64,000 bases of DNA from an uncultured Prevotellaceae bacterium (GTDB taxonomy: Bacteria > Bacteroidota > Bacteroidia > Bacteroidales > Bacteroidaceae): positions 1 through 64,000 of the forward strand of contig CACXPX010000003.1 in NCBI GenBank assembly GCA_902769705.1, written 5' to 3'. A program made the position numbers and the translations under genes. Positions 3,798 to 64,000 of the stretch are shown here, one piece after another; position 1 is the first letter of the stretch, and every line of letters starts with the position of its first letter. The notes under the pieces are model-generated. The model was not told where the DNA came from. It saw only the letters and a list, made by a program, of their open reading frames with translations, and searched no databases.

Positions 3798-4180
3798 TTT
3801 GTAAAGGAAATTCTGAATTTTGAGCCCTAAAAACAGGCTATTTTCTGAACTGGGAAAGGTTTTGGTGCGAAAAACGCCAAAAATTGACATTTCCGGAAGT
3901 CGTTGACTATCAGCCACTTCCGTTTTCTTTACATCTTTTCATCTTGTCAAAGCTATGCTTTTAGGTTGTCAGAGCTATGCTTTAACCCTCTCACTTGTGG
4001 CAAATGAGCGGCTCAGATGCCACTAATGACAAGGTCAAAGGCCACAAATGACACCCTCAAAAGCCACAAATGACAAAACTGTCGAAGAAAAGTGAGGGTG
4101 GAAAAGGGTGAAAGTAAAGATTCTTTACATATTTCTTTTCTAGATTGCACGGAAAAGTTGACAAGAATTTGTTGTGTTTT
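3798..4180 (+). repeat. Dispersed non-coding element, copy A
   Basis: One of four related copies in this window. It has the shared core TTTTGGTGCGAAAAACGC (3860-3877), the CACTTCCGTTTTCTTTACAT block, then a cluster of units built on GCCACAAATGACA in both orientations (about 3990-4075), and ends with TTTCTAGATTG and GTTGACAAGAATTTG. Sequence near TTTGTAA-AAATTCTGAAT opens the copy. No conserved frame runs through the four copies. It lies in the convergent gap between the porin gene and menA. Confidence 0.7.
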
Positions 4181-4361
4181 TTCAGCATCAATTCTGAGCA
4201 TAAGATACAGGGAATGGTATAGATGTTGCCAAATACTGGGGTGAAATCACTATATGATTAGGATGCTTTGGCAGGACACCAACACCACGATTGAACTGAG
4301 CACAGGCATGAAGTGACGTCAGTACATGCGGCATGTACTAGCAGTACACGGGGTATATACT
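4181..4361. other. Gap between copy A and the end of menA
   Basis: No gene seen. It contains a perfect inverted repeat, GTACATGC (4322-4329) / GCATGTAC (4331-4338), just after the menA stop in the direction of menA transcription. There is no T-run beyond it, so it is not a typical intrinsic terminator. Confidence 0.4.
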
Positions 4362-5984: not shown

Positions 5985-6000
5985 TGGATTTAGTTATAAA

Positions 6001-6049
6001 CTATGAACTATGAACTATGAATTATGAACTATGAACCATGCCCTATGCA
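6001..6049. repeat. Heptamer tandem repeat (CTATGAA)
   Basis: Seven consecutive 7-base units; four are exactly CTATGAA and the others differ by one to three bases. It fills the gap between the ends of two convergent genes and stops at the stop codon at 6050. Confidence 0.8.
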
Positions 6050-7213
6050 CTATTTAATCGTCACTTGCGTGGCTCCGTATCCATACTCTTGGAATGAGGC
6101 ATCCTGATAGGTGTAGGACTTGTAGCGATAGCACAGGTCGTTGACCAATGCGCGACGCAACACGCCCTCGCCCTTGCCGTGGATGAAGATGATGCGCTGG
6201 CCCTTCTTTGAGGCGTATTCGGCCAACGTGCGACGGAATACGGAGACCTGATGGTTGAGGATGTCGCCCGCCGACATGCCCGCGGTGGTGTCGAGCAAGG
6301 CATCAACATGGAGGTCGACCACCACAACATCCTCGTCGCCCTTGCGCTTGGCGATGGTTCGTGGCTTGGCAACGGGTTGGCCGACGTTGGCAAGCGGCTT
6401 GGCTACGCGCGTCTTGTCGGGTTGCTCCACATGATACATCTCTTCTTTCAGGCGTTTGGCGTCGATGACCAGCGGACGTGTCACCTTGTCGTTCTCGACG
6501 ATGGTATAGAGCAAGGCGGGCTGCTCGAAGAAGTCGTTTTCTTGGAACGTGTGCAACTTGTAGAACTTCACGGCATCGATGCGGAATTGCACGTCGATGA
6601 CGGGTTTCAACACGAAGGGTTTCTCGCGCTTGTAGGCCATCATCTGAATGGCCACATGCCCCAAGTTGTTGAGCTCTTCGCGGCCGAACTCCTCGATGAA
6701 GACCTTGGTGTTGGGCTCCACCTCGCCTTGTGAGCGAAGTGTCCAGTTGGCTCCCTCGGCGGCGAGATAGGTGTATTGGATGTAATAGTTGCTATCGTTC
6801 ACGAAATAGCTCTCGAAGCGCGTGTGGGTGACCTCCTTGATGTCGATGGGCACAAAGGCCAGATAGGCCGAGAGCTGGTTGCCGCCCTTGCGCTCTTCGA
6901 CGGGTTTCTTGAAGGTTACCTTCGAATAGTCGACCTCGTCATCGGCAGAGTCAATGGGGTCGGCTTCGTCTTGCCCCTGCTTCATCATGGCCTTGATGGA
7001 ACGGCCGTCGGGCTTCTGTGGGGAAGCGCCCTTGCTGGTGACAACGTGGGTGGTGCTATAGTCTTCGGCGCCAATCACTACGACATCGGTGATGGCCATG
7101 GGAATCTCGAAGCCGTCTTCGTCTTCAACGAGCACGATGTTAGAACCTTTGAACCCAGTGACCGTGCCTCCTCCAATCTCGCTCAGGAAGCGGACTTTAT
7201 CTCCTTTTTTCAT
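6050..7213 (-). CDS. DUF2027 and Smr domain protein
   Basis: A 387-residue protein with the architecture of Bacteroidota DUF2027 proteins. The N-terminus (MKKGDKVRFLSEIGGGTVTGF, about 1-50) looks like a small beta-barrel module, the middle (about 110-270) is the DUF2027 core, and residues about 298-387 form an Smr domain with VDLHVDALL and FIHGKGEGVLRRAL, the latter matching the HGxG pattern of Smr nucleases and nucleic-acid-binding proteins. It is probably cytosolic and acts on DNA or RNA, but this is an inference from the domain. The gene starts 28 bases after queA and is probably the last gene of the long moxR-bat transcription unit. The stop is TAG. Confidence 0.82.
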   Translation of the reverse strand: MKKGDKVRFLSEIGGGTVTGFKGSNIVLVEDEDGFEIPMAITDVVVIGAEDYSTTHVVTSKGASPQKPDGRSIKAMMKQGQDEADPIDSADDEVDYSKVTFKKPVEERKGGNQLSAYLAFVPIDIKEVTHTRFESYFVNDSNYYIQYTYLAAEGANWTLRSQGEVEPNTKVFIEEFGREELNNLGHVAIQMMAYKREKPFVLKPVIDVQFRIDAVKFYKLHTFQENDFFEQPALLYTIVENDKVTRPLVIDAKRLKEEMYHVEQPDKTRVAKPLANVGQPVAKPRTIAKRKGDEDVVVVDLHVDALLDTTAGMSAGDILNHQVSVFRRTLAEYASKKGQRIIFIHGKGEGVLRRALVNDLCYRYKSYTYQDASFQEYGYGATQVTIK

Positions 7214-22437: not shown

Positions 22438-22830
22438 TTCTGTCAAAAAAATTCCGAATTTTAGCCTCAAAAACAGGCCGATTTTTGAAATGAACAAGAT
22501 TTTGGTGCGAAAAACGCAAAAAATTGATGGCTTGGGAAGTTGCTGATTATCAAGAACTTCCGTTTTCTTTACATTTTCAGCATTTGCAAAAGCCATCCTT
22601 TCATGTTGTCAGAGATGGCTTCTGAGCCTGTCACTTATATCATCTAAGGCCGTCAGATGCCACATGTGAGCGTGTCAGATGCCACATGTGAAACCCTCAG
22701 AAGCCACAAGTGACAATTCCACTCACCAAAAATCGGCCAAAAAGAGCATAAAAATCACTTTTCCCCACTCTGTCTCTATCTAGATTGAACGAAAAAGCTG
22801 ACAACATTTTGTCACTATTTTTCCGAATAA
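22438..22830 (+). repeat. Dispersed non-coding element, copy B
   Basis: Second copy of the family, same orientation as copy A. The core TTTTGGTGCGAAAAACGC is at 22500-22517. Units such as GTCAGATGCCACATGTGA and CTCAGAAGCCACAAGTGACA fill about 22600-22715, followed by AAAGAGCATAAAAATCAC and TAGATTGAACG. TGTCA and TTCCGAAT occur near both ends. It lies between the nucleotidyltransferase promoter and the terminator of the 23004 gene. Confidence 0.75.
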
Positions 22831-45881: not shown

Positions 45882-46151
45882 TTATCCAATAACCGCTAAG
45901 ACATCGCTCTGACGCATGATGAGGAACTTCTCGCCGTCGAGTTCAATCTCGGTGCCTGCATATTTGCCATAGAGCACCTCGTCGCCCTCTTTCAAGACCA
46001 TTTCCTCGTCTTTTGTACCACATCCAGCTGCCACGATCTTACCGCGCAGGGGTTTCTCTTTTGCTGTGTCGGGGATGATGATTCCGCCAACCTTCTCTTC
46101 TGCCGGTGCTGGTGCCACCAACACACGGTCTGCTAATGGTTTAATGTTCAT
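45882..46151 (-). CDS. groES: Co-chaperonin GroES
   Basis: An 89-residue lid of the GroEL chamber, starting [39 protein letters not shown]. The mobile loop (about 16-32) and the beta-barrel with [35 protein letters not shown] are complete. groEL follows after 75 bases on the same strand. Confidence 0.97.
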
Positions 46152-46230
46152 GATTGATGAATTTAATAATTTATATTTAATGTTTAATCTTTCATCTTTA
46201 ATCTAAATATTCCTCCTCCCGCCCTCTTTT

Positions 46231-46474: not shown

Positions 46475-49400
46475 ATGAAAAAGATATTAGGTCTCGACTT
46501 GGGCACAACCAGCATTGGTTGGGCAATTGTCAATGAAAAAGAAAATGATAATGAAGCATCATCTATCATTAGACTTGGTGTCAGAGTAAACCCATTGACC
46601 GTTGACGAAAAGACTAACTATGAGAAAGGAAAATCTATCACTACCAATGCAGACAGACGCGCAAAGCGTAGTATGCATCGTAATCTTCAACGATACAAGT
46701 TACGCAGAACGAATCTCATAGAATGTCTTTGTCAATACAACCTTATAACAAAGGAAACTCCATTATTTGAACAAGGCAACTACTCAACCTTAAGTACATA
46801 CAGAGCAAGAGCAAAGGCAGTCACAGAAGAAATCTCATTGGAAGAATTAGCAAAAGTATTGCTGATGATTAACAAAAAACGCGGTTACAAGAGCTGTCGC
46901 AAGGTGAAAGATGGAGAAGAAGGCGAACTCATCGATGGCATGGAAATCGCTAAGAGGCTCTATGAAGAAAACCTCACTCCAGGGCAACTGCTTCTTGAAT
47001 TGTCACAGAACGGAAAGAGGAATCGCCCTACTTTCTATCGTTCAGACCTTCAAGCAGAGTTTGACAAAGTCTGGGATATACAATCCGCTTTTTATCCCGA
47101 CATATTGACCGATGACTTCAAGCATTCCCTACATGGATTCAACAAGACACAAACATCAGGAGCATTTTATGCTGTCCATAACATCAGTACAGCCAAAAAT
47201 AGCGGAAAAGAAGGATATCTCCAATCACTTATTTGGCGAGCTGATGCTTTGCGATATAAAATGGGAATTGAAGAGGTGGCTTACATCCTTGCTGACATTA
47301 ATGGCGCTATCAACAACTCCAGCAAACGCTTGGCTATGATTAGCGATAGAAGCAAAGAACTCTATTTCAATCACCAAACTATAGGGCAATACTTAATGCA
47401 ACGCCTGAATGAGAATCCTAACGCCAGCCTCAAGAATATCATCTTTTATCGTCAAGATTATATGGACGAATTTGAGGCTATATGGGAAAAACAAAAACAA
47501 TATCACCCTGAACTCACTCCCGAGTTAAAGAAAGAGATACGCGACATTATCATTTTCTACCAACGTGATTTGAAGAGTTGTAAGAATCTGGTCAACTATT
47601 GCGAACTTGAACACGAAGAAAGAGAAATTCTCGTTGATGGTAAGAAAAAGACAATCATGACGGGTTGCAAAGTATGCCCCAAGTCCTCACCATTATTCCA
47701 ATGTTTCAAAATCTGGCAAATACTGAATAACATCCAAGTTTCTGTAGTTGGCCATAAACGGAAAAGAATCAAGAAAGACAAAGACCAACCATCTTTATTT
47801 GAGGACACACAAGTGGAATCCTTGCAACGCTTTTTAGACCAAGAAGAAAAGGACATTTTATACAAAGAACTGTCTATCAAGGAGAAAATGAGCAAAAAGG
47901 AGATTCTTAAGCTATTGTTCGAGAATCCCAACAATCTTGACCTCAACTATAAAGAGGTGGAGGGAAACAAGACAATGGCAGCTCTTTTCAAATCCTTTCA
48001 AGACATTATCAGTTCGACAGGTAATGGAGAATATGACTTTACCAAGATGCCGGCAGATGAAGTAATGTCAATCACTTCTGAAATCTTCACAGGATTAGGC
48101 TATAAGACCGACTTCCTCACATTCAATCCTTTGCTTGAAGGCAAAGCATTTGAGCAACAACCAGCCTTCCGCTTGTGGCATCTGCTTTATTCCTATTCAG
48201 GCGACAATTCCACAACAGGCAACGAAGCCTTGTACAATAAGATTCAGGAAATCTGTGGCTTTGATAAAGAATATGCTACTATACTTGCTAACGTTTCAAT
48301 GCCACTCGACTATGGAAGCCTCAGCGCAAAAGCCATTCGTAAAGTTCTCCCCCATATGATGAAAGGCTACGAATATAGTGAAGCCTGCAATATGGCTGGC
48401 TACAACCACTCTACCCGTTCTTTAACAAAAGATGATTTGGCCAACAAGGAATACAAGTCACATATAGACTCTATCAAACGCAACAGCCTTCGCAATCCAG
48501 TGGTTGAGAAAATCCTTAACCAGATGATAAATGTAGTGAACGAGATTGTAGCGACTTATGGAAAGCCCGATGAAATAAGAATTGAGATGGCTCGGGAATT
48601 GAAAAAGAGCCAAGAAGAACGTCAGTTATTAGACGCAGCCATCAGAAAAAACACAACAGAAAGTGAGAAACTACGCAAAGAGTTAGAAGAAGAATTCGGC
48701 ATCAAACATGTCACCAAAAACGACATCCTTCGCCTTAAACTTTATAACGAACTGAAACCGAATGGATTCAAAACCCTCTACTCTAATACCTATATCCCAC
48801 GAGAAGAACTCTTCAGTAAACGGTTTGATATTGAGCACATCATACCTAAAGCCCGCCTTTTCGATGACTCGTTTTCCAATAAGACTCTTGAAGTACGCGA
48901 CATCAACATCGAAAAGGGAGACCTTACCGCTTACGACTACATCGCAGGCAAATATGATGATGACTATCTAGCTGAATACGAAAGCCGCATAGAAGACTTG
49001 TATGTGCAAAAAGCGATTTCAAAGACAAAGCGCAACAACCTCCTTATGAAAGAATCTGACATACCATCCGACTTTTTGGAACGAGATTTGCGCGATTCAC
49101 AGTATATAGCAAGAAAAGCCTGTGAGATTTTAGAAGAGTTGGTTCCGTTCGTTGTCACAACCACAGGTGCCGTTACCAACCGTTTGCGTGAAGATTGGCA
49201 ACTGGTCAATCTCATGCAAGAACTGAATTGGGAAAAATACGATGCGCTAGGCATGACAGATAGTTATACAGACAAGAATGGTAATATAGTAAAACGCATC
49301 AAAGATTGGACAAAACGAAACGATCACCGCCATCATGCAATGGATGCACTAACAATTGCCTTCACAAAGCGAAGCATTGTCCAATACCTGAGTAACTTGA

Positions 49401-50671
49401 ATGCACGTAGCGACAAATCGGGCAGCATTTACGGCATTGAACAGAAAGAACTACATCGTGACGAAAAAGGCCACAAACTTGTCTTCAATGCACCAATGCC
49501 ATTAAACGAGTTCAGAGCCGAAGCACGGAAGCATCTCGAAAGTGTCCTTGTTTCCGTTAAGGCCAAAAACAAAGTTACTACGAAGAACATCAACAAGGCA
49601 AAAAACAAAGACGGACATCAGTTGAAAGTACAGTTGACTCCACGCGGTGCATTGCATAATGAAACTGTATATGGAAAGATTTGCAACTTCGAAGCAGAAT
49701 ACAAGAATGTGGATGGCAAATTTACCGAAGAAACCATATTACGCGTATCCAATCAGAAATACCGCCAAGCCCTGTTAGAACGTCTTTCCGCATTTGACAA
49801 TGACCCCAAGAAAGCATTCACAGGAAAGAACAGTTTAGACAAAAATCCCATTTGGCTCAACGCAGAACATTCACATTGTGTTCCTCTGAAAGTGAAACTC
49901 TATAAGATAATAGATGTCTTTACCATCAAGAAGGCTGTCGACAAAGACTTGAAGATAGACAAAGTGATAGATAGAAGGGTACGCGAAATTCTACAACAAA
50001 GACTTGACGAGTTTAGAGGTGTTGCCGCTAAGGCTTTCTCTAACCTTGACGACAATCCCATTTGGCTGAACAAGGAGAAAGGAATTTCTATTAAGAGGGT
50101 TAAAATCAAAGCAAAGGTTTCTACAGAAACGTCAGTCCCCTTGCATATGAAGAGAGACCTTTGGGGGAACATTCTGAAAGACAAAGAAGGAAAAGCTATT
50201 CCTACCGACTATGTTAACACAGCTAGCAACCATCATGTTGCCATCTTTGTTGACGCCGAAGGAAACTGGCACGAACATGTAGTTTCATTCTTCGAAGCAA
50301 CCGCAAGCGCATTGTTGGGACTACCTATCGTTGATAAGAATTACAAAAGAGATGAAGGCTGGAAATTCCTGTTCTCCATGAAGCAAAATGAATATTTCGT
50401 TTTTCCAAATGAAAAGACGGGATTCAATCCTTCTGATATTGATATGATGGACCCAAACAACTATACACTTATTAGCCCTAATCTTTTCCGAGTTCAAAAG
50501 TTTTCAAGTTCATTCTATGTTTTCAGGCACCATTTAGAAACCAATGTTGAAGAACAAAATGAACTTAAAGATACAACATGGAAGAGTATAAGGAGTGTAA
50601 AAAAACTAGAAGGAGCCATAAAAGTACGTGTCAACCATATTGGTGCTATTGTTGCCATAGGTGAATATTAA
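46475..50671 (+). CDS. cas9: CRISPR-associated endonuclease Cas9, type II-C
   Basis: A 1398-residue Cas9 that cuts DNA matched by crRNA-tracrRNA. All catalytic residues are visible: D8 in LGLDLGTTSIGWAIV (RuvC I), the Arg-rich bridge helix at about 57-85, E704 in IRIEMAREL (RuvC II), H788 in FDIEHIIPKARLFDDSFSNK with the following Asn (HNH), and H954/D957 in HHAMDALTIAF (RuvC III). The length is typical of Bacteroidota II-C enzymes. Two related modules with NPIWLN (about 1098-1148 and 1169-1216) lie in the C-terminal part that reads the PAM. Codon use is more A/T-rich than in the flanking genes, which fits acquisition by transfer. cas1 starts 3 bases later but is truncated. Confidence 0.96.
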   Translation: MKKILGLDLGTTSIGWAIVNEKENDNEASSIIRLGVRVNPLTVDEKTNYEKGKSITTNADRRAKRSMHRNLQRYKLRRTNLIECLCQYNLITKETPLFEQGNYSTLSTYRARAKAVTEEISLEELAKVLLMINKKRGYKSCRKVKDGEEGELIDGMEIAKRLYEENLTPGQLLLELSQNGKRNRPTFYRSDLQAEFDKVWDIQSAFYPDILTDDFKHSLHGFNKTQTSGAFYAVHNISTAKNSGKEGYLQSLIWRADALRYKMGIEEVAYILADINGAINNSSKRLAMISDRSKELYFNHQTIGQYLMQRLNENPNASLKNIIFYRQDYMDEFEAIWEKQKQYHPELTPELKKEIRDIIIFYQRDLKSCKNLVNYCELEHEEREILVDGKKKTIMTGCKVCPKSSPLFQCFKIWQILNNIQVSVVGHKRKRIKKDKDQPSLFEDTQVESLQRFLDQEEKDILYKELSIKEKMSKKEILKLLFENPNNLDLNYKEVEGNKTMAALFKSFQDIISSTGNGEYDFTKMPADEVMSITSEIFTGLGYKTDFLTFNPLLEGKAFEQQPAFRLWHLLYSYSGDNSTTGNEALYNKIQEICGFDKEYATILANVSMPLDYGSLSAKAIRKVLPHMMKGYEYSEACNMAGYNHSTRSLTKDDLANKEYKSHIDSIKRNSLRNPVVEKILNQMINVVNEIVATYGKPDEIRIEMARELKKSQEERQLLDAAIRKNTTESEKLRKELEEEFGIKHVTKNDILRLKLYNELKPNGFKTLYSNTYIPREELFSKRFDIEHIIPKARLFDDSFSNKTLEVRDINIEKGDLTAYDYIAGKYDDDYLAEYESRIEDLYVQKAISKTKRNNLLMKESDIPSDFLERDLRDSQYIARKACEILEELVPFVVTTTGAVTNRLREDWQLVNLMQELNWEKYDALGMTDSYTDKNGNIVKRIKDWTKRNDHRHHAMDALTIAFTKRSIVQYLSNLNARSDKSGSIYGIEQKELHRDEKGHKLVFNAPMPLNEFRAEARKHLESVLVSVKAKNKVTTKNINKAKNKDGHQLKVQLTPRGALHNETVYGKICNFEAEYKNVDGKFTEETILRVSNQKYRQALLERLSAFDNDPKKAFTGKNSLDKNPIWLNAEHSHCVPLKVKLYKIIDVFTIKKAVDKDLKIDKVIDRRVREILQQRLDEFRGVAAKAFSNLDDNPIWLNKEKGISIKRVKIKAKVSTETSVPLHMKRDLWGNILKDKEGKAIPTDYVNTASNHHVAIFVDAEGNWHEHVVSFFEATASALLGLPIVDKNYKRDEGWKFLFSMKQNEYFVFPNEKTGFNPSDIDMMDPNNYTLISPNLFRVQKFSSSFYVFRHHLETNVEEQNELKDTTWKSIRSVKKLEGAIKVRVNHIGAIVAIGEY

Positions 50672-50674
50672 TCT

Positions 50675-51117
50675 ATGATTAAGAAAACTCTATGTTTCAG
50701 CAATCCCGCCTATCTCTCACTACGTGATTCACAATTGGTTATCAAACTACCAGAGGTAGAAAGGGCAGCTAACCTCACAGAAGATTTCAAGAAATCTGCT
50801 GAGGTGACACGTCCCATCGAAGATATCGGAGTGGTGGTGCTCGACCACAAGCAGATAACCATCACTTCGGGTGCGCTCGAAGCATTATTGGAGAATAATT
50901 GTGCTGTCATCACTTGCGATTCCCGTTCTATGCCCGTGGGTCTTTTGCTTCCATTAGTTGGTAACACCACTCAGAATGAACGCTTCCGCAACCAACTTGA
51001 TGCATCACAACCTTTGCGAAAACAATTATGGCAGCAAACAATTCAACACAAAATCAAGAACCAAGCAGCAGTGCTCTCCCAATGCACTGAGGCAGAAACA
51101 AGATGCATGCATATATG
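50675..51117 (+). pseudogene. cas1: cas1 remnant, cut off at the first CRISPR repeat
   Basis: The N-terminal part of a type II-C Cas1 integrase, starting MIKKTLCFSNPAYLSLRDSQ and including TRPIEDIGVVVLDHKQITIT and KKQLWQ-like RKQLWQQTIQHKIKNQAAVLSQ. Recognisable Cas1 sequence runs to about residue 148 (AETRCMHIW), and the next base belongs to CRISPR repeat 1; the open frame then runs into the repeat and stops at 51145 (156 codons in total). The family's usual length is about 300 residues, and the C-terminal domain with the Glu-His-Glu catalytic residues is missing. No cas2 follows. The deletion probably removed the end of cas1, cas2 and one flank of the array. The remnant cannot be an active integrase. 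Confidence 0.9.
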
Positions 51118-52239
51118 GCTGTTGCTGATGATGCAAAGATACTAATTTTTAAGCAAATCACAACCACTAGGTGCACGTTCCTTTCATCCTAACGCTGTTG
51201 CTGATGATGCAAAGATACTAATTTTTAAGCAAATCACAACTCGACGGCCCTTCTTGGTACACCCCCTACAACTGTTGTTGATGATGCAAAGATACTAATT
51301 TTTAAGCAAATCACAACAGTGAGTTATTAATTTCTTCCATTCGTTGTGCTGTTGCTGATGATGCAAAGATACTAATTTTTAAGCAAATCACAACAGATCC
51401 TGATAGGCAGCGAGAAGGAGTCGAGCTGTTGCCGATGATGCAAAGATACTAATTTTTAAGCAAATCACAACTGGCTCACAACTTTCACCTCGAAGCCTTT
51501 CACTGTTGCTGATGATGCAAAGATACTAATTTTTAAGCAAATCACAACCAACAGACGTAAGTCTCTTTGGAGTTCTTCGCTGTTGCCGATGATGCAAAGA
51601 TACTAATTTTTAAGCAAATCACAACAGTGGTTCGCTGTTCCTATTGAGCAGCTTGGCTGTTGCCGATGATGCAAAGATACTAATTTTTAAGCAAATCACA
51701 ACAAAGATAAGATATACGGATACTATAGATGTGCTGTTGCTGATGATGCAAAGATACTAATTTTTAAGCAAATCACAACCCGTAGTCATAGATATTGGAG
51801 AAATTTGCGCTGTTGCTGATGATGCAAAGATACAAATTTTTAAGCAAATCACAACCCCTCGTAGCTGTCGTCCTTTGTCTGGCTGCTGTTGCTGATGATG
51901 CAAAGATACTAATTTTTCAGCAAATCACAACGCGCTGTCGTGACTTGTTGCTCGTTTCGAAGCTGTTGCCGATGATGCAAAGATACTAATTTTTAAGCAA
52001 ATCACAACAGTGAGTTATTAATTTCTTCCATTCGTTGTGCTGTTGCCGATGATGCAAAGATACTAATTTTTAAGCAAATCACAACTGATGGGTATTTATT
52101 CCGCTGAGCCGTTGAGCTGTTGCCGATGATGCAAAGATACTAATTTTTAAGCAAATCACAACGCATCTTTCTTCTTGGTGCTGATGAAGGTGGCTGTTGC
52201 CGATGATGCAAAGATACTAATTTTTCAGCAAATCACAAC
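51118..52239 (-). CRISPR. Type II-C CRISPR array, 15 repeats and 14 spacers
   Basis: Fifteen 47-base repeats (starts 51118, 51194, 51271, 51348, 51425, 51502, 51579, 51656, 51733, 51809, 51885, 51962, 52039, 52116, 52193) separate 14 spacers of 30 bases, three of them 29 (spacers 1, 9, 10). In crRNA orientation (minus strand) the repeat begins GTTGTGATTTGCTTAAAAAT and contains TAGTATCTTTGCATCATC. Variants: base 39 is A or G, repeat 10 has a change in TTAGT, repeats 11 and 15 have CTGAAAA in place of CTTAAAA, and repeats 3 and 6 differ in the last base. Spacers 3 and 12 are identical. The minus strand is taken as the crRNA strand because its 5' half pairs with the tracrRNA anti-repeat. Confidence 0.98.
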
Positions 52240-52340: not shown

Positions 52341-52729
52341 CCTAATTTATTTTACAAAACCTTGTCAAGTGCATCATTCAATCTAGAGTGGAAATAAGGG
52401 TGAAAAAGCGATTTTCATGCTCTTTTCCCTCCACTTTTGAAGAGTGGATTTGTCACTTGTGGCTTTTGAGGTTGTCATTTGTGGCCTTTGACCTTGTCAT
52501 TTGTGGCATCTGAGGCGCTCATTTGCCACAAGTGAGAGGCTCAAAGCATAGCTTTGACAATCGAAAAGCATCGTTTTGGCAGGGTGTAAAAATGTAAGAA
52601 AAACGGAAAATGTTGATTATCAACGACTTGCAAAAATATCGATTTTTTGCGTTTTTTCGGCCAATCTCCCGTTCGCTCTAAACAATGGCCTGTTTTTAGG
52701 GGTCAAAATTCGGAATTAATTTTACAAAT
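52341..52729 (-). repeat. Dispersed non-coding element, copy C
   Basis: Third copy, in the opposite orientation to the others. Its core is more diverged (GGCCGAAAAAACGC). Three near-identical 22-base units in a row, TTGTCAYTTGTGGCNTYTGA, lie at about 52450-52515, followed by an inverted unit TTTGCCACAAGTGAGAGG. TTTGTAAAATnAATT occurs at both ends. It lies between the CRISPR array and ogt. Confidence 0.72.
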
Positions 52730-61507: not shown

Positions 61508-63259
61508 TTAAAAAGGAAAGGCAAAGGGGAAGCCGCCATCAAACGACGGCATTTTCATCTCTTTCAGTTCTTGTATGTTCGGCTCCCAATCTTTGTCAAA
61601 CCGCTCGATATTGCGGTCGAGGAACGCCAAGCGGTCGGCAAGCCACTTCTTCAACACCCTAATCTCCTCGTCGTACGAACTGACGCGGTAGGCCGCAAAC
61701 CAGCCGATAGCATCGCCTCCGAAGCCACCCATCATCGGGAAACCACCAGGGAACTGGGGGATGGAATCTGGCATCGAGAAGCCTTCGGGCATCGGGAAAC
61801 CACCCATTGGCGGGAAACCGCCTGGGAACTGAGGGATGGAGTCGGACATGGGGAATCCTCCAAAGGGGAACCGACCGCCCATCATTCCCATTGGCGGGAA
61901 GTTGAAACCACCAGGGATGGAGTCAGGAGCGGAGAAGCCTTCAGGCATCGGGAATCCTCCCATCGGTGGGAAACCACCCGGGAACTGAGGAATTGAATCG
62001 GGCATAGAGAAACCACCCATCATCGGGAAAACGCCACCAAAGCCGCCGAACGGTTGCTGGGCAGGCATCTGTTGTTTCTGTTCCTCAGAGACCAACAACT
62101 CAGGATAGGTCGCGAAGTGGTGGTCAACGCAAGGAGCCAACAGCTTAGCATGTTGGTCGATGTATTTGTTGATGGCGCGGTTGCTCAACACTCCTTTCCG
62201 CAACTCCTTATAGCGCACCTTCACCGCCTTTCGGAACGCGGGGTCCTGTAACAAGCGTTGCCAAAGTGCAGGAGTGGGTTGCGTGTTACCGCCCTCAAAA
62301 CACCACGCTTCAATATTGTCAGCATTACAGAAGTTACAGTTGCCATAAGCCAGATTGTAATCCCACACCGGCCCTGCCACCAACTTGCCTCCCGTTCCAT
62401 CAGCATGCAACTTCTCCTTATAGAAATAGGCGCTGCGTTTGTAGCCGTCGGCATTCAGGCTCAGCTCAGTATGGATGAAATAGTCGACAAACGAGGGAAC
62501 ATCGATATAGCGGGCATAGCCGCGCTTGGGGTCAGCAAAATAGTCCGACTGAATAACCCGCTCCACCGTGTCCACGTAGCTCTCGATATACGCCAGCTGT
62601 TCGGGTTGCAGCTTTTTCTTCTTCGGATAGATGCACGACCACGTAATCTGGCTGGTCATGATACCTTGGCCGATGCCTGGCACCTTCGAGGGGAATGTGG
62701 CGTCTTCTTCGTCGTAGGTGTCAATCCTCAAGAGATAGCCACCTGTCACGTCGCGCCCTTCAACGTCGCTTTTCTTCAGCTTCGAGATGTTCACGCGCTC
62801 GGCACCACGCTTGATTGCTTCTGACAGAATATAGATGCCTCTGTATTCGCCGTTAAACGTCAGTTCCACCATCTTCGTGCGAGGTCCCCAATGCCCCATA
62901 TCGCGCCACAACTGGAATGCCAACGGGTCGCGAACGGCCGACACGTCGTTATAAGGAGCCAACAGAACCCAATCGCTATGGGCAGGCATACCCAGCAGGG
63001 AAGCTTCAATATCGCCACCCTTGCTATCGCGCAGTTCTATGGTGTATTTCTTTTGGTTGAACGAGAGCGAACTGTTGCCGCGAAGCTTAATACCTATCAG
63101 GCCGTCATAGTCGCCCACCTTCATGTGCGCCGTCACCTTGCGCTGGGCGTTGAGTGCTGTGTCGGCAGTAATAATTACTTTTTCAAGGGCTCCCCCTTTC
63201 GCTTGCATCGCCATTGAAGCGAGCACGAAGAGCATAACAGATAACAATCTTTTCATCAT
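61508..63259 (-). CDS. CotH-family protein with Gly/Pro/Met-rich repeat insert
   Basis: A 583-residue exported protein of the CotH kinase family, known from Bacillus spore coat proteins as atypical protein kinases. Signal peptide (about 1-21) is followed by GIKLRGNSSLSFNQKKYTIEL (about 56-76), LLAPYNDVSAVRDPLAFQL, NGEYRGIYILSEAIKR, and the HTELSLNADGYKRSAYFYKE and VAGPVWDYNLAYGN segments of the family. Odd feature: residues about 400-511 are an insert of repeated units such as MPDSIPQFPGGFPPMGGF, between the core and a conserved final helix (YDEEIRVLKKWLADRLAFLDRNIERF). It is the first gene of the 63-55 kb minus-strand run and has a clear promoter. Confidence 0.83.
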   Translation of the reverse strand: MMKRLLSVMLFVLASMAMQAKGGALEKVIITADTALNAQRKVTAHMKVGDYDGLIGIKLRGNSSLSFNQKKYTIELRDSKGGDIEASLLGMPAHSDWVLLAPYNDVSAVRDPLAFQLWRDMGHWGPRTKMVELTFNGEYRGIYILSEAIKRGAERVNISKLKKSDVEGRDVTGGYLLRIDTYDEEDATFPSKVPGIGQGIMTSQITWSCIYPKKKKLQPEQLAYIESYVDTVERVIQSDYFADPKRGYARYIDVPSFVDYFIHTELSLNADGYKRSAYFYKEKLHADGTGGKLVAGPVWDYNLAYGNCNFCNADNIEAWCFEGGNTQPTPALWQRLLQDPAFRKAVKVRYKELRKGVLSNRAINKYIDQHAKLLAPCVDHHFATYPELLVSEEQKQQMPAQQPFGGFGGVFPMMGGFSMPDSIPQFPGGFPPMGGFPMPEGFSAPDSIPGGFNFPPMGMMGGRFPFGGFPMSDSIPQFPGGFPPMGGFPMPEGFSMPDSIPQFPGGFPMMGGFGGDAIGWFAAYRVSSYDEEIRVLKKWLADRLAFLDRNIERFDKDWEPNIQELKEMKMPSFDGGFPFAFPF

Positions 63260-63457: not shown

Positions 63458-63845
63458 AAATGTCAAGATAATTCCGAATTATAGCCCTTAAAAACGGCCT
63501 GTTTTCTGAAGTAAACAAGATTTTGGTGCGAAAAACGCAAAAAATCGACATTTCCAGAAGTCGCTGATATTCAACAACTTCCGTTTTTCTTACATTTTCA
63601 GCTCCTGCAAAAGCAATGCTTTCGCCTTGTCACTTGTGGCTTCTGAGCCCGTCACTTATAACATCTAAGGCCGTCAGATGCCACAAGTGAGCGCGTCAGA
63701 TGCCACATATGACACCCTCAGAAGCCACAAGTGACAAATTCACCCTTCAAAAGTGGAGAGAAAAGAGCATAAAAATCACTTTTTCACCTCTATTTCCACT
63801 CTAGATTGAACGATAAAGTTGACAAGATTTTGTAATGGAAATTCA
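63458..63845 (+). repeat. Dispersed non-coding element, copy D
   Basis: Fourth copy, in the orientation of copies A and B. The core TTTTGGTGCGAAAAACGC is at 63521-63538. The unit cluster is bounded by a perfect 21-base inverted repeat (63627-63647 and 63717-63737) and includes GTCAGATGCCACAAGTGAG. It ends with ACTCTAGATTGAACGATAAA and GATTTTGTAATGGAAATTC. It is upstream of the CotH-type gene. Confidence 0.75.
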
Positions 63846-64000
63846 TAATAATTAAAGCAATTATCAACGGCCATTATCTGCTTTTTAACCACGTTAAAAG
63901 TAATGGTTTCCGACACCTCTTTTTCCTTCTTTTTTTCCGTAAAATGATAAAAAATCGAAAAGTTGAGATGATTTTGCAAATTATTAGGCGATAGAGCACG
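63846..64000. other. Right end of the window
   Basis: No gene is seen. A short inverted repeat TTTTAAC-CAC-GTTAAAA lies at 63883-63899. A 67-codon minus-strand open frame (63979-63776) overlaps copy D and shows no protein-like pattern. Confidence 0.4.

Follow-up and report, generated by a model that had tools for sequence, protein, structure and literature searches.

Among described repeats, and to judge from the parts of the two published accounts drawn on here, those closest to the element characterized in the current study are BrickBuilt in architecture and PINSR in host. BrickBuilt of Porphyromonas gingivalis is an intergenic, non-coding element dispersed within one genome, in which a distinct leader and tail surround tandem 23-nt units, and arrays also occur without leader or tail (Klein et al., 2015, PMC4596501). 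Its terminal inverted repeats, GAGACCTTTGCA, are of the IS5 type, its units number 1 to 22.8, it occupies 19 loci, and its authors see it as a non-autonomous MITE-like element (PMC4596501). PINSR of Prevotella intermedia/nigrescens is likewise non-coding, intergenic and lineage-specific, with 177 and 184 copies (Naito et al., 2015, PMC4755523). It measures 188 bp, and the sections of that account used here report no terminal inverted repeats and mention no array of units (PMC4755523).

As far as these descriptions go, the present element shares with BrickBuilt a tandem array set between unlike modules, the units being 22 bp here and 23 nt in BrickBuilt. It differs in its ends, where the BrickBuilt repeats GAGACCTTTGCA are absent and TTTGTCAAnATAATTCYGAA and TTTTTCAnAATAATT stand instead; in its number of units, which is variable in BrickBuilt and six in 101 of 118 records here; and in abundance, with 79 copies vs. 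19 loci and a plan that recurs across species in different words. With PINSR it shares the genus by name, a non-coding and intergenic character, high copy number and lineage specificity, whereas the described length is 188 bp vs. 384 bp here, the two being set apart by description rather than by sequence comparison. A search of the open-access literature on intergenic, dispersed or 22-bp repeats of Prevotella brought up no description of the family (subscription papers and preprints lay outside the search), and no Rfam family matched. The original prediction, which recognized no described family, stands to that extent and is to be qualified in that two published repeats, BrickBuilt and PINSR, broadly resemble the family in kind. 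The family looks unreported, a new form of a known kind.

The window, that is, the whole 64-kb stretch of DNA analyzed, comes from the genome of a gut-type Prevotella (G000; 3.6 Mb in 72 contigs, 99.4% complete) and had been predicted to hold four copies, A to D, of the element. All four were found at the positions and on the strands predicted, and they align over the whole element with a mean column identity of 76% (alignment including flanks). Their features are as follows.

3799-4182, + strand: copy A, placed by profile (model from 45 copies) and by whole-element alignment
3948-4079, + strand: six-unit 22-bp array of copy A
22441-22822, + strand: copy B, placed by profile and by whole-element alignment
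22588-22719, + strand: six-unit 22-bp array of copy B, limits from alignment to copy A (TRF 22653-22713)
52345-52727, - strand: copy C, placed by profile and by whole-element alignment
52447-52578, - strand: six-unit 22-bp array of copy C, register from profile and array analysis (TRF 52450-52515)
63460-63853, + strand: copy D, whole element from the left end to AATAATT at the right end, right limit from the conservation profile of 87 records with both ends
63460-63481, + strand: left end of copy D, ATGTCAAGATAATTCCGAATTA, genome-wide left-end motif TTGTCAARAWAATTCYGAATTT
63521-63538, + strand: core TTTTGGTGCGAAAAACGC of copy D, a TTGG..GAAAAA-like motif being found also in other species
63556-63583, + strand: imperfect dyad GAAGTCGCTGATATTCAACAACTTC of copy D and the T-rich stretch 3' of it
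63609-63740, + strand: six-unit 22-bp array of copy D, units starting at 63609, 63631, 63653, 63675, 63697 and 63719
63800-63853, + strand: right module of copy D, with TCTAGATTGAACG, imperfect dyad TTGACAAGATTTTGTAA and TTCATAATAATT

Under the 45-copy profile copy D spans 63461-63842 (+), and the conservation profile puts the right boundary about 8-12 bp past the coordinates first proposed. As predicted, the core TTTTGGTGCGAAAAACGC is exact in copies A, B, and D, and the expected cluster of GCCACAAGTGACA-type sequences is present; it is a regular array of 22-bp units, and tandem repeats of period 22 were detected independently by TRF in all four window copies. The closing block reads CTAGATTGAACG in B and D, CTAGATTGCACG in A and CTAGATTGAATG in C.

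The neighborhoods of the four copies are varied. Copy A is flanked by a Porin_10 gene and menA (UbiA family), which are convergent, and a distance of 183 bp separates copy C from the last repeat that Rfam matched in a CRISPR array. That array (51118-52162, -; Rfam CRISPR-DR49) has 47-nt repeats; upstream of it is an ORF at 46475-50671 (+, 1398 aa) that is Cas9-like by size only, and a further ORF lies nearby at 50675-51145 (+). Copy D adjoins the gene for a CotH-kinase-domain protein with long Gly/Pro/Phe/Met-rich tandem repeats (61508-63259, -). Short 7-bp tandem repeats also occur in the window at 5995-6053 and 46134-46202 (TATGAAC x 8.4; TAATGTT-like).

The expectation that the genome would hold many copies was confirmed by genome-wide profile search, with 79 distinct copies in the stretches of G000 that were fetched. 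Copy D used alone as a query gave at least 40 plus-orientation matches, itself included, among the best 40 of 146 candidates scored. A profile of the left third (R1, a sequence-only covariance model of the left 139 columns of alignment A2) gave 82 matches at E ≤ 1e-3 among the best 150 of 1741 candidates scored, the last five being partial or weak. The 22-base left-end pattern matched 81 times with up to 3 mismatches and the unit pattern 270 times with up to 1 mismatch, and the backwards control of each matched 0 times; chance is excluded as the source of the copies. Among named relatives, the closest one found is Prevotella sp. RGIG7546 (G101; L139), which comes from water buffalo omasum. It gave 44 matches at E ≤ 0.01 in the profile search, and this sister species holds 38 copies in 39 records, one copy with a longer array being split in two.

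Gene predictions from a hexamer model made in this analysis place the copies between genes, as had been proposed from the window: 78 of the 79 G000 copies and 38 of the 39 G101 records overlap any predicted gene by no more than 100 bp, and the sole G000 record that exceeds this is a truncated copy. The orientation of flanking genes in G000 is mixed (22 divergent, 16 convergent, 38 tandem, and 2 at contig edges). A coding element was rejected, in line with the original prediction of no conserved reading frame, since none of 45 copies has a stop-free frame. A terminator function was also rejected, as a terminator search detected none in copy D and gene orientation shows no preference. The dyad GAAGTCGCTGATATTCAACAACTTC and its T-rich stretch are terminator-like in many copies, and its pairs are not compensating; by a cruder count, a dyad of at least 9/12 pairs with a T-rich tail is present in 50/79 G000 and 13/38 G101 records.

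The order of parts is constant. A left end, TTTGTCAAnATAATTCYGAATTTT, is followed by a left module with the core TTTTGGTGCGAAAAACGC, a dyad block ending in CTTCCGTTTTYYTTACAT, six 22-bp units, a module with TCTAGAWTGAACG and GTTGACAAGAATTTGTCA, and the right end TTTTTCAnAATAATT, the right module terminating as TTTGTCA..TTTTTCAnAATAATT. Extrapolated length is 382-385 bp in 65 of 79 G000 and 31 of 39 G101 records, while mean pairwise identity among copies is 0.65 in G000, 0.67 in G101 and 0.595 between the two species, so that length is nearly fixed (about 383-384 bp in most copies) despite low identity. An exact array of 6 x 22 bp was found in 101 of the 118 pooled G000 and G101 records, and the 17 records without an exact 132-bp array were left out of the array analysis. 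The pooled consensus of the unit is CAAATGCCACATATGAGACTGT. Its center is variable, and its most constant letters are the first CA, TGA at positions 14-16 and the last T.

Since the element folds well, it could be thought of as a structured RNA gene that has been amplified in the genome. Copy D folds far better than shuffled sequences (z = -10.1 on the minus strand and -6.2 on the plus strand), and z-scores are negative on both strands in 45/45 copies, if small in a few. However, the two strands fold alike over the 45 copies, with mean z of -4.7 for plus and -4.9 for minus and the minus strand lower in 20/45, which is expected of inverted DNA units, and chimeras of units fold at least as well as natural arrays. 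The main dyad is not compensating either, its observed value being reached by 340 and 949 of 1000 shuffles in tests that left out 1 and 2 records. Left-stem pairing across 64 sequences of 7 species was matched by 1412 (standard-pair) and 611 (Watson-Crick) of 2000 shuffles, and within species by 487 and 95 of 2000, respectively. Mutual information, obtained together with RNAalifold from 41 of 45 copies (L055, L042, L047, and L038 left out), tracks blocks of words rather than pairs. A single finding runs counter to these: complementarity between the two halves of a unit exceeds that of swapped halves (0.579 vs. 0.553 in G000 and 0.565 vs. 0.542 in G101; 0/500 shuffles each), with the caveat that unit 4 runs in the opposite direction in both species and that relatedness is uncontrolled; when halves are swapped over all units, the observed value is reached in 14/300 cases in G101 and 0/300 in G000. 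This complementarity fits dimer sites and hairpins alike. At the curated threshold, Rfam found only the CRISPR repeats in the whole window, and below threshold the four copies gave only chance-level scores to eukaryotic snoRNAs, in keeping with the original view, which recognized no described family. We consider an RNA gene quite improbable.

The 22-bp direct units of the present element, spaced by two helical turns and set beside AT-rich and dyad modules, resemble iteron origins. A scattered plasmid or phage replication origin with 22-bp iterons nevertheless seems very improbable, as copy D has no match in 72,556 plasmid records and a single, chance-like match of 36 bases in 50,697 phage records, and one core pattern had no match in viral contigs.

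TTTGTCA is common to both ends in direct orientation, as read by eye. The ends are only weakly inverted relative to each other, and covariation between left and right is absent (78 scored copies, p = 1.0). In the 87 of 118 records that cover both ends, to which the duplication test was restricted, matching flanks of k = 4-10 showed no clear excess over permuted copies. Bacterial MITEs are short, non-coding, dispersed and non-autonomous. The present element resembles them in being short, non-coding, dispersed and apparently non-autonomous and in having an end common to a second family in the genome, but differs in that it has no clear terminal inverted repeat or target duplication and no cognate insertion sequence was found among the extra left-end matches fetched.

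The second family came from four extra left-end matches fetched, out of 81. Three of them belong to a second non-coding family (L305, G000:C8:98907 -; L306, C2:73127 +; L307, C3:225519 -), whose left end is shared and whose insides differ, and one is a degenerate copy; none of the four is a coding element or an autonomous relative with a gene. Two of the three second-family loci carry 22-bp units of another word, ATTACCAGTATGCGGTAACACC, and L305 is a chimera of the second family's left half and the present family's right half, which shows exchange of internal parts between families having a common left end. Separately, eight G101 copies (L229, L230, L232, L234, L235, L236, L238, and L239) and one G000 copy (L258) have about 200-650 bp of sequence in common, mostly frame-poor and at or near the left end, so that there is a longer composite form of the element. 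A parent element within this common upstream sequence was rejected because it has no long shared frame.

As a nucleotide query, copy D gave no convincing match in 99 relatives, with no more than 6 candidates scored per relative, whereas the profile recovers multi-copy families in relatives; since unit words differ between species, ordinary nucleotide searches miss the common plan. At E ≤ 0.01, profile R1 matched in 27 of 60 genomes, its own included, and we take several of these, single weak matches in other families, to be at chance level. At E ≤ 1e-5, with the best 10 candidates scored per genome, 25 of 299 genomes of the genus matched, again including its own, and most sampled species of the genus had no match; eight other genomes (G002, G012, G160, G167, G216, G243, G274, and G311) have at least four matches. 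The family-level search matched in 7 of 399 genomes, its own included, three of which belong to other genera. A single copy in another genus (L321, G731:C59:1569-1704 -; E 3e-29) is 83% identical to a G000 copy and may reflect either horizontal transfer or a misbinned contig.

Copies from the four other species examined (G012, G167, G160, and G311) share the plan and keep the 22-bp period with different unit words; AAAGCTATGCTTT, TAACATATATAGTTA, AAAGGTAAGGTTT and ATTTGCGTCACTTT are examples of these words. In the leaf order of the tree, 30 of the 39 G101 records form one block, and the other 9 lie among G000 copies. Comparison of the copies shows separate amplification in different species, each with its own unit words. 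One pair of element copies, beginning at L251:1895 in G000 and L206:1831 in G101, is 94% identical between the species. Past the copies, a further 252 bp remain 96% identical and reach into the beginning of a surface-protein-like gene, after which the sequences diverge, a pattern suggestive of recent transfer or recombination.

A plan that is conserved while its words are species-specific also recalls REP/REPIN-type repeats, which would be moved by a Y1 (RAYT or IS200-like) transposase. REPs are 20-40 bp long, and RAYT transposases go with REP/REPIN. The present element has in common with them a dispersed, intergenic position, high copy number, imperfect palindromes and the absence of a target duplication, and differs in size and in its host's lack of the enzyme: with the Pfam model, Y1 transposase PF01797 is absent from G000, G101, G012, G160, G311, G274, and G243. 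Of 10 carriers searched, 3 have the domain, as do 3 of 10 genomes picked as non-carriers or as having single weak matches only. A Y1 transposase as mobilizer was rejected because its presence shows no link to carriers, and we regard a REP/REPIN-type origin as hardly credible.

Comparison of the occupied sites indicates considerable turnover. ORFs flanking 40 fetched copies or weak matches from other species, 20 of them from G012, revealed no orthologous neighbor at 45 G000 sites, the sole ORF match being at 27% identity. Both flanks are common to G000 (79 sites) and G101 (38 sites) at only seven sites. In six of the seven, the G000 and G101 elements are not mutual best matches, and in one pair (L030/L226) they lie in opposite orientation. 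Such a pattern calls for repeated insertion or gene conversion and suggests that one of these processes acted on sites that were already old. The seven sites are the strongest point for conserved sites and could mean that the sites are conserved for a function. The spacer between the porin gene and menA is 762 nt with copy A in it, and in two relatives without the element, in which the genes are also convergent, about 168 nt (L140) and about 89 nt (L148) separate the matched gene ends. MenA of these relatives is 73% and 61% identical, and at such distance loss of the element there, instead of insertion in G000, is possible.

The array may also be considered the point in itself. On this account it would be a chromosomal binding array that organizes the nucleoid, titrates a regulator or provides insulation; selection would maintain it between genes, and it would evolve together with a species-specific protein. 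Arrays do occur by themselves. Among the unit-pattern matches listed (100 of 270), 16 further loci outside the catalogue were chosen, with chains of 2-6 units; in 10 of them the element ends are missing and the profile matches the array alone (model positions 144-310), and the other six retain part of the left or right module. In two loci (L337 and L341; G000:C12 and C21), an AT-rich palindrome, GTAAAATAATTTATTTTAC, stands beside TCA..TGA units in the same 22-bp register. The retention of the period under different words in four other species, the seven shared sites, and an array-like stretch without element ends downstream of menA in G101, the closest relative, also speak for a binding array. 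Conversely, copy numbers and sites differ greatly between species, most sampled species of the genus have no match, gene context and orientation are mixed, and the conserved ends and modules would go unexplained. We therefore regard a binding array as the whole explanation as unlikely, if less so than an RNA gene, an iteron origin or a REP/REPIN-type repeat.

These observations lead us to regard the family as a probable mobile element, non-autonomous and MITE-like, that has no genes, belongs to the BrickBuilt/PINSR kind and is mobilized in trans. We infer its mobility from dispersal, defined ends, species-wise amplification, mostly unshared sites, an empty site, and modularity. The absence of a target duplication and of end covariation, the failure to find an autonomous relative, and the arrays without ends count against it. 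If the element is mobile, it would insert between genes, and an enzyme provided in trans would recognize its ends and either copy or move it. Each 22-bp unit, a dyad-like TCA..TGA site that recurs every two helical turns, could be bound by a dimeric DNA-binding protein, and the array might build a nucleoprotein complex for transposition or be a cargo site. The unit words would then drift together with the binding protein, species by species.

A bolder idea, which we put forward tentatively and think rather unlikely, is a genus-wide address code, species-specific in its words. Each genome would hold hundreds of 22-bp dyad sites, grouped by about six into arrays, and a fast-evolving DNA-binding protein would read them. 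If this were true, the period would be conserved and the words rewritten across copies in each species. It would also mean that a selfish element became, or borrowed, a chromosome-wide binding network, with arrays both in mobile elements and free-standing.

In the parts of their accounts used here, BrickBuilt and PINSR are presented as confined to one species or group of species, whereas the present plan is recognizable in several species. This raises the question of what reads a 22-bp array whose letters change and whose spacing stays constant. It may also turn such single-species curiosities into a comparable superfamily, in which presence and absence among genomes would offer a route to the enzyme.
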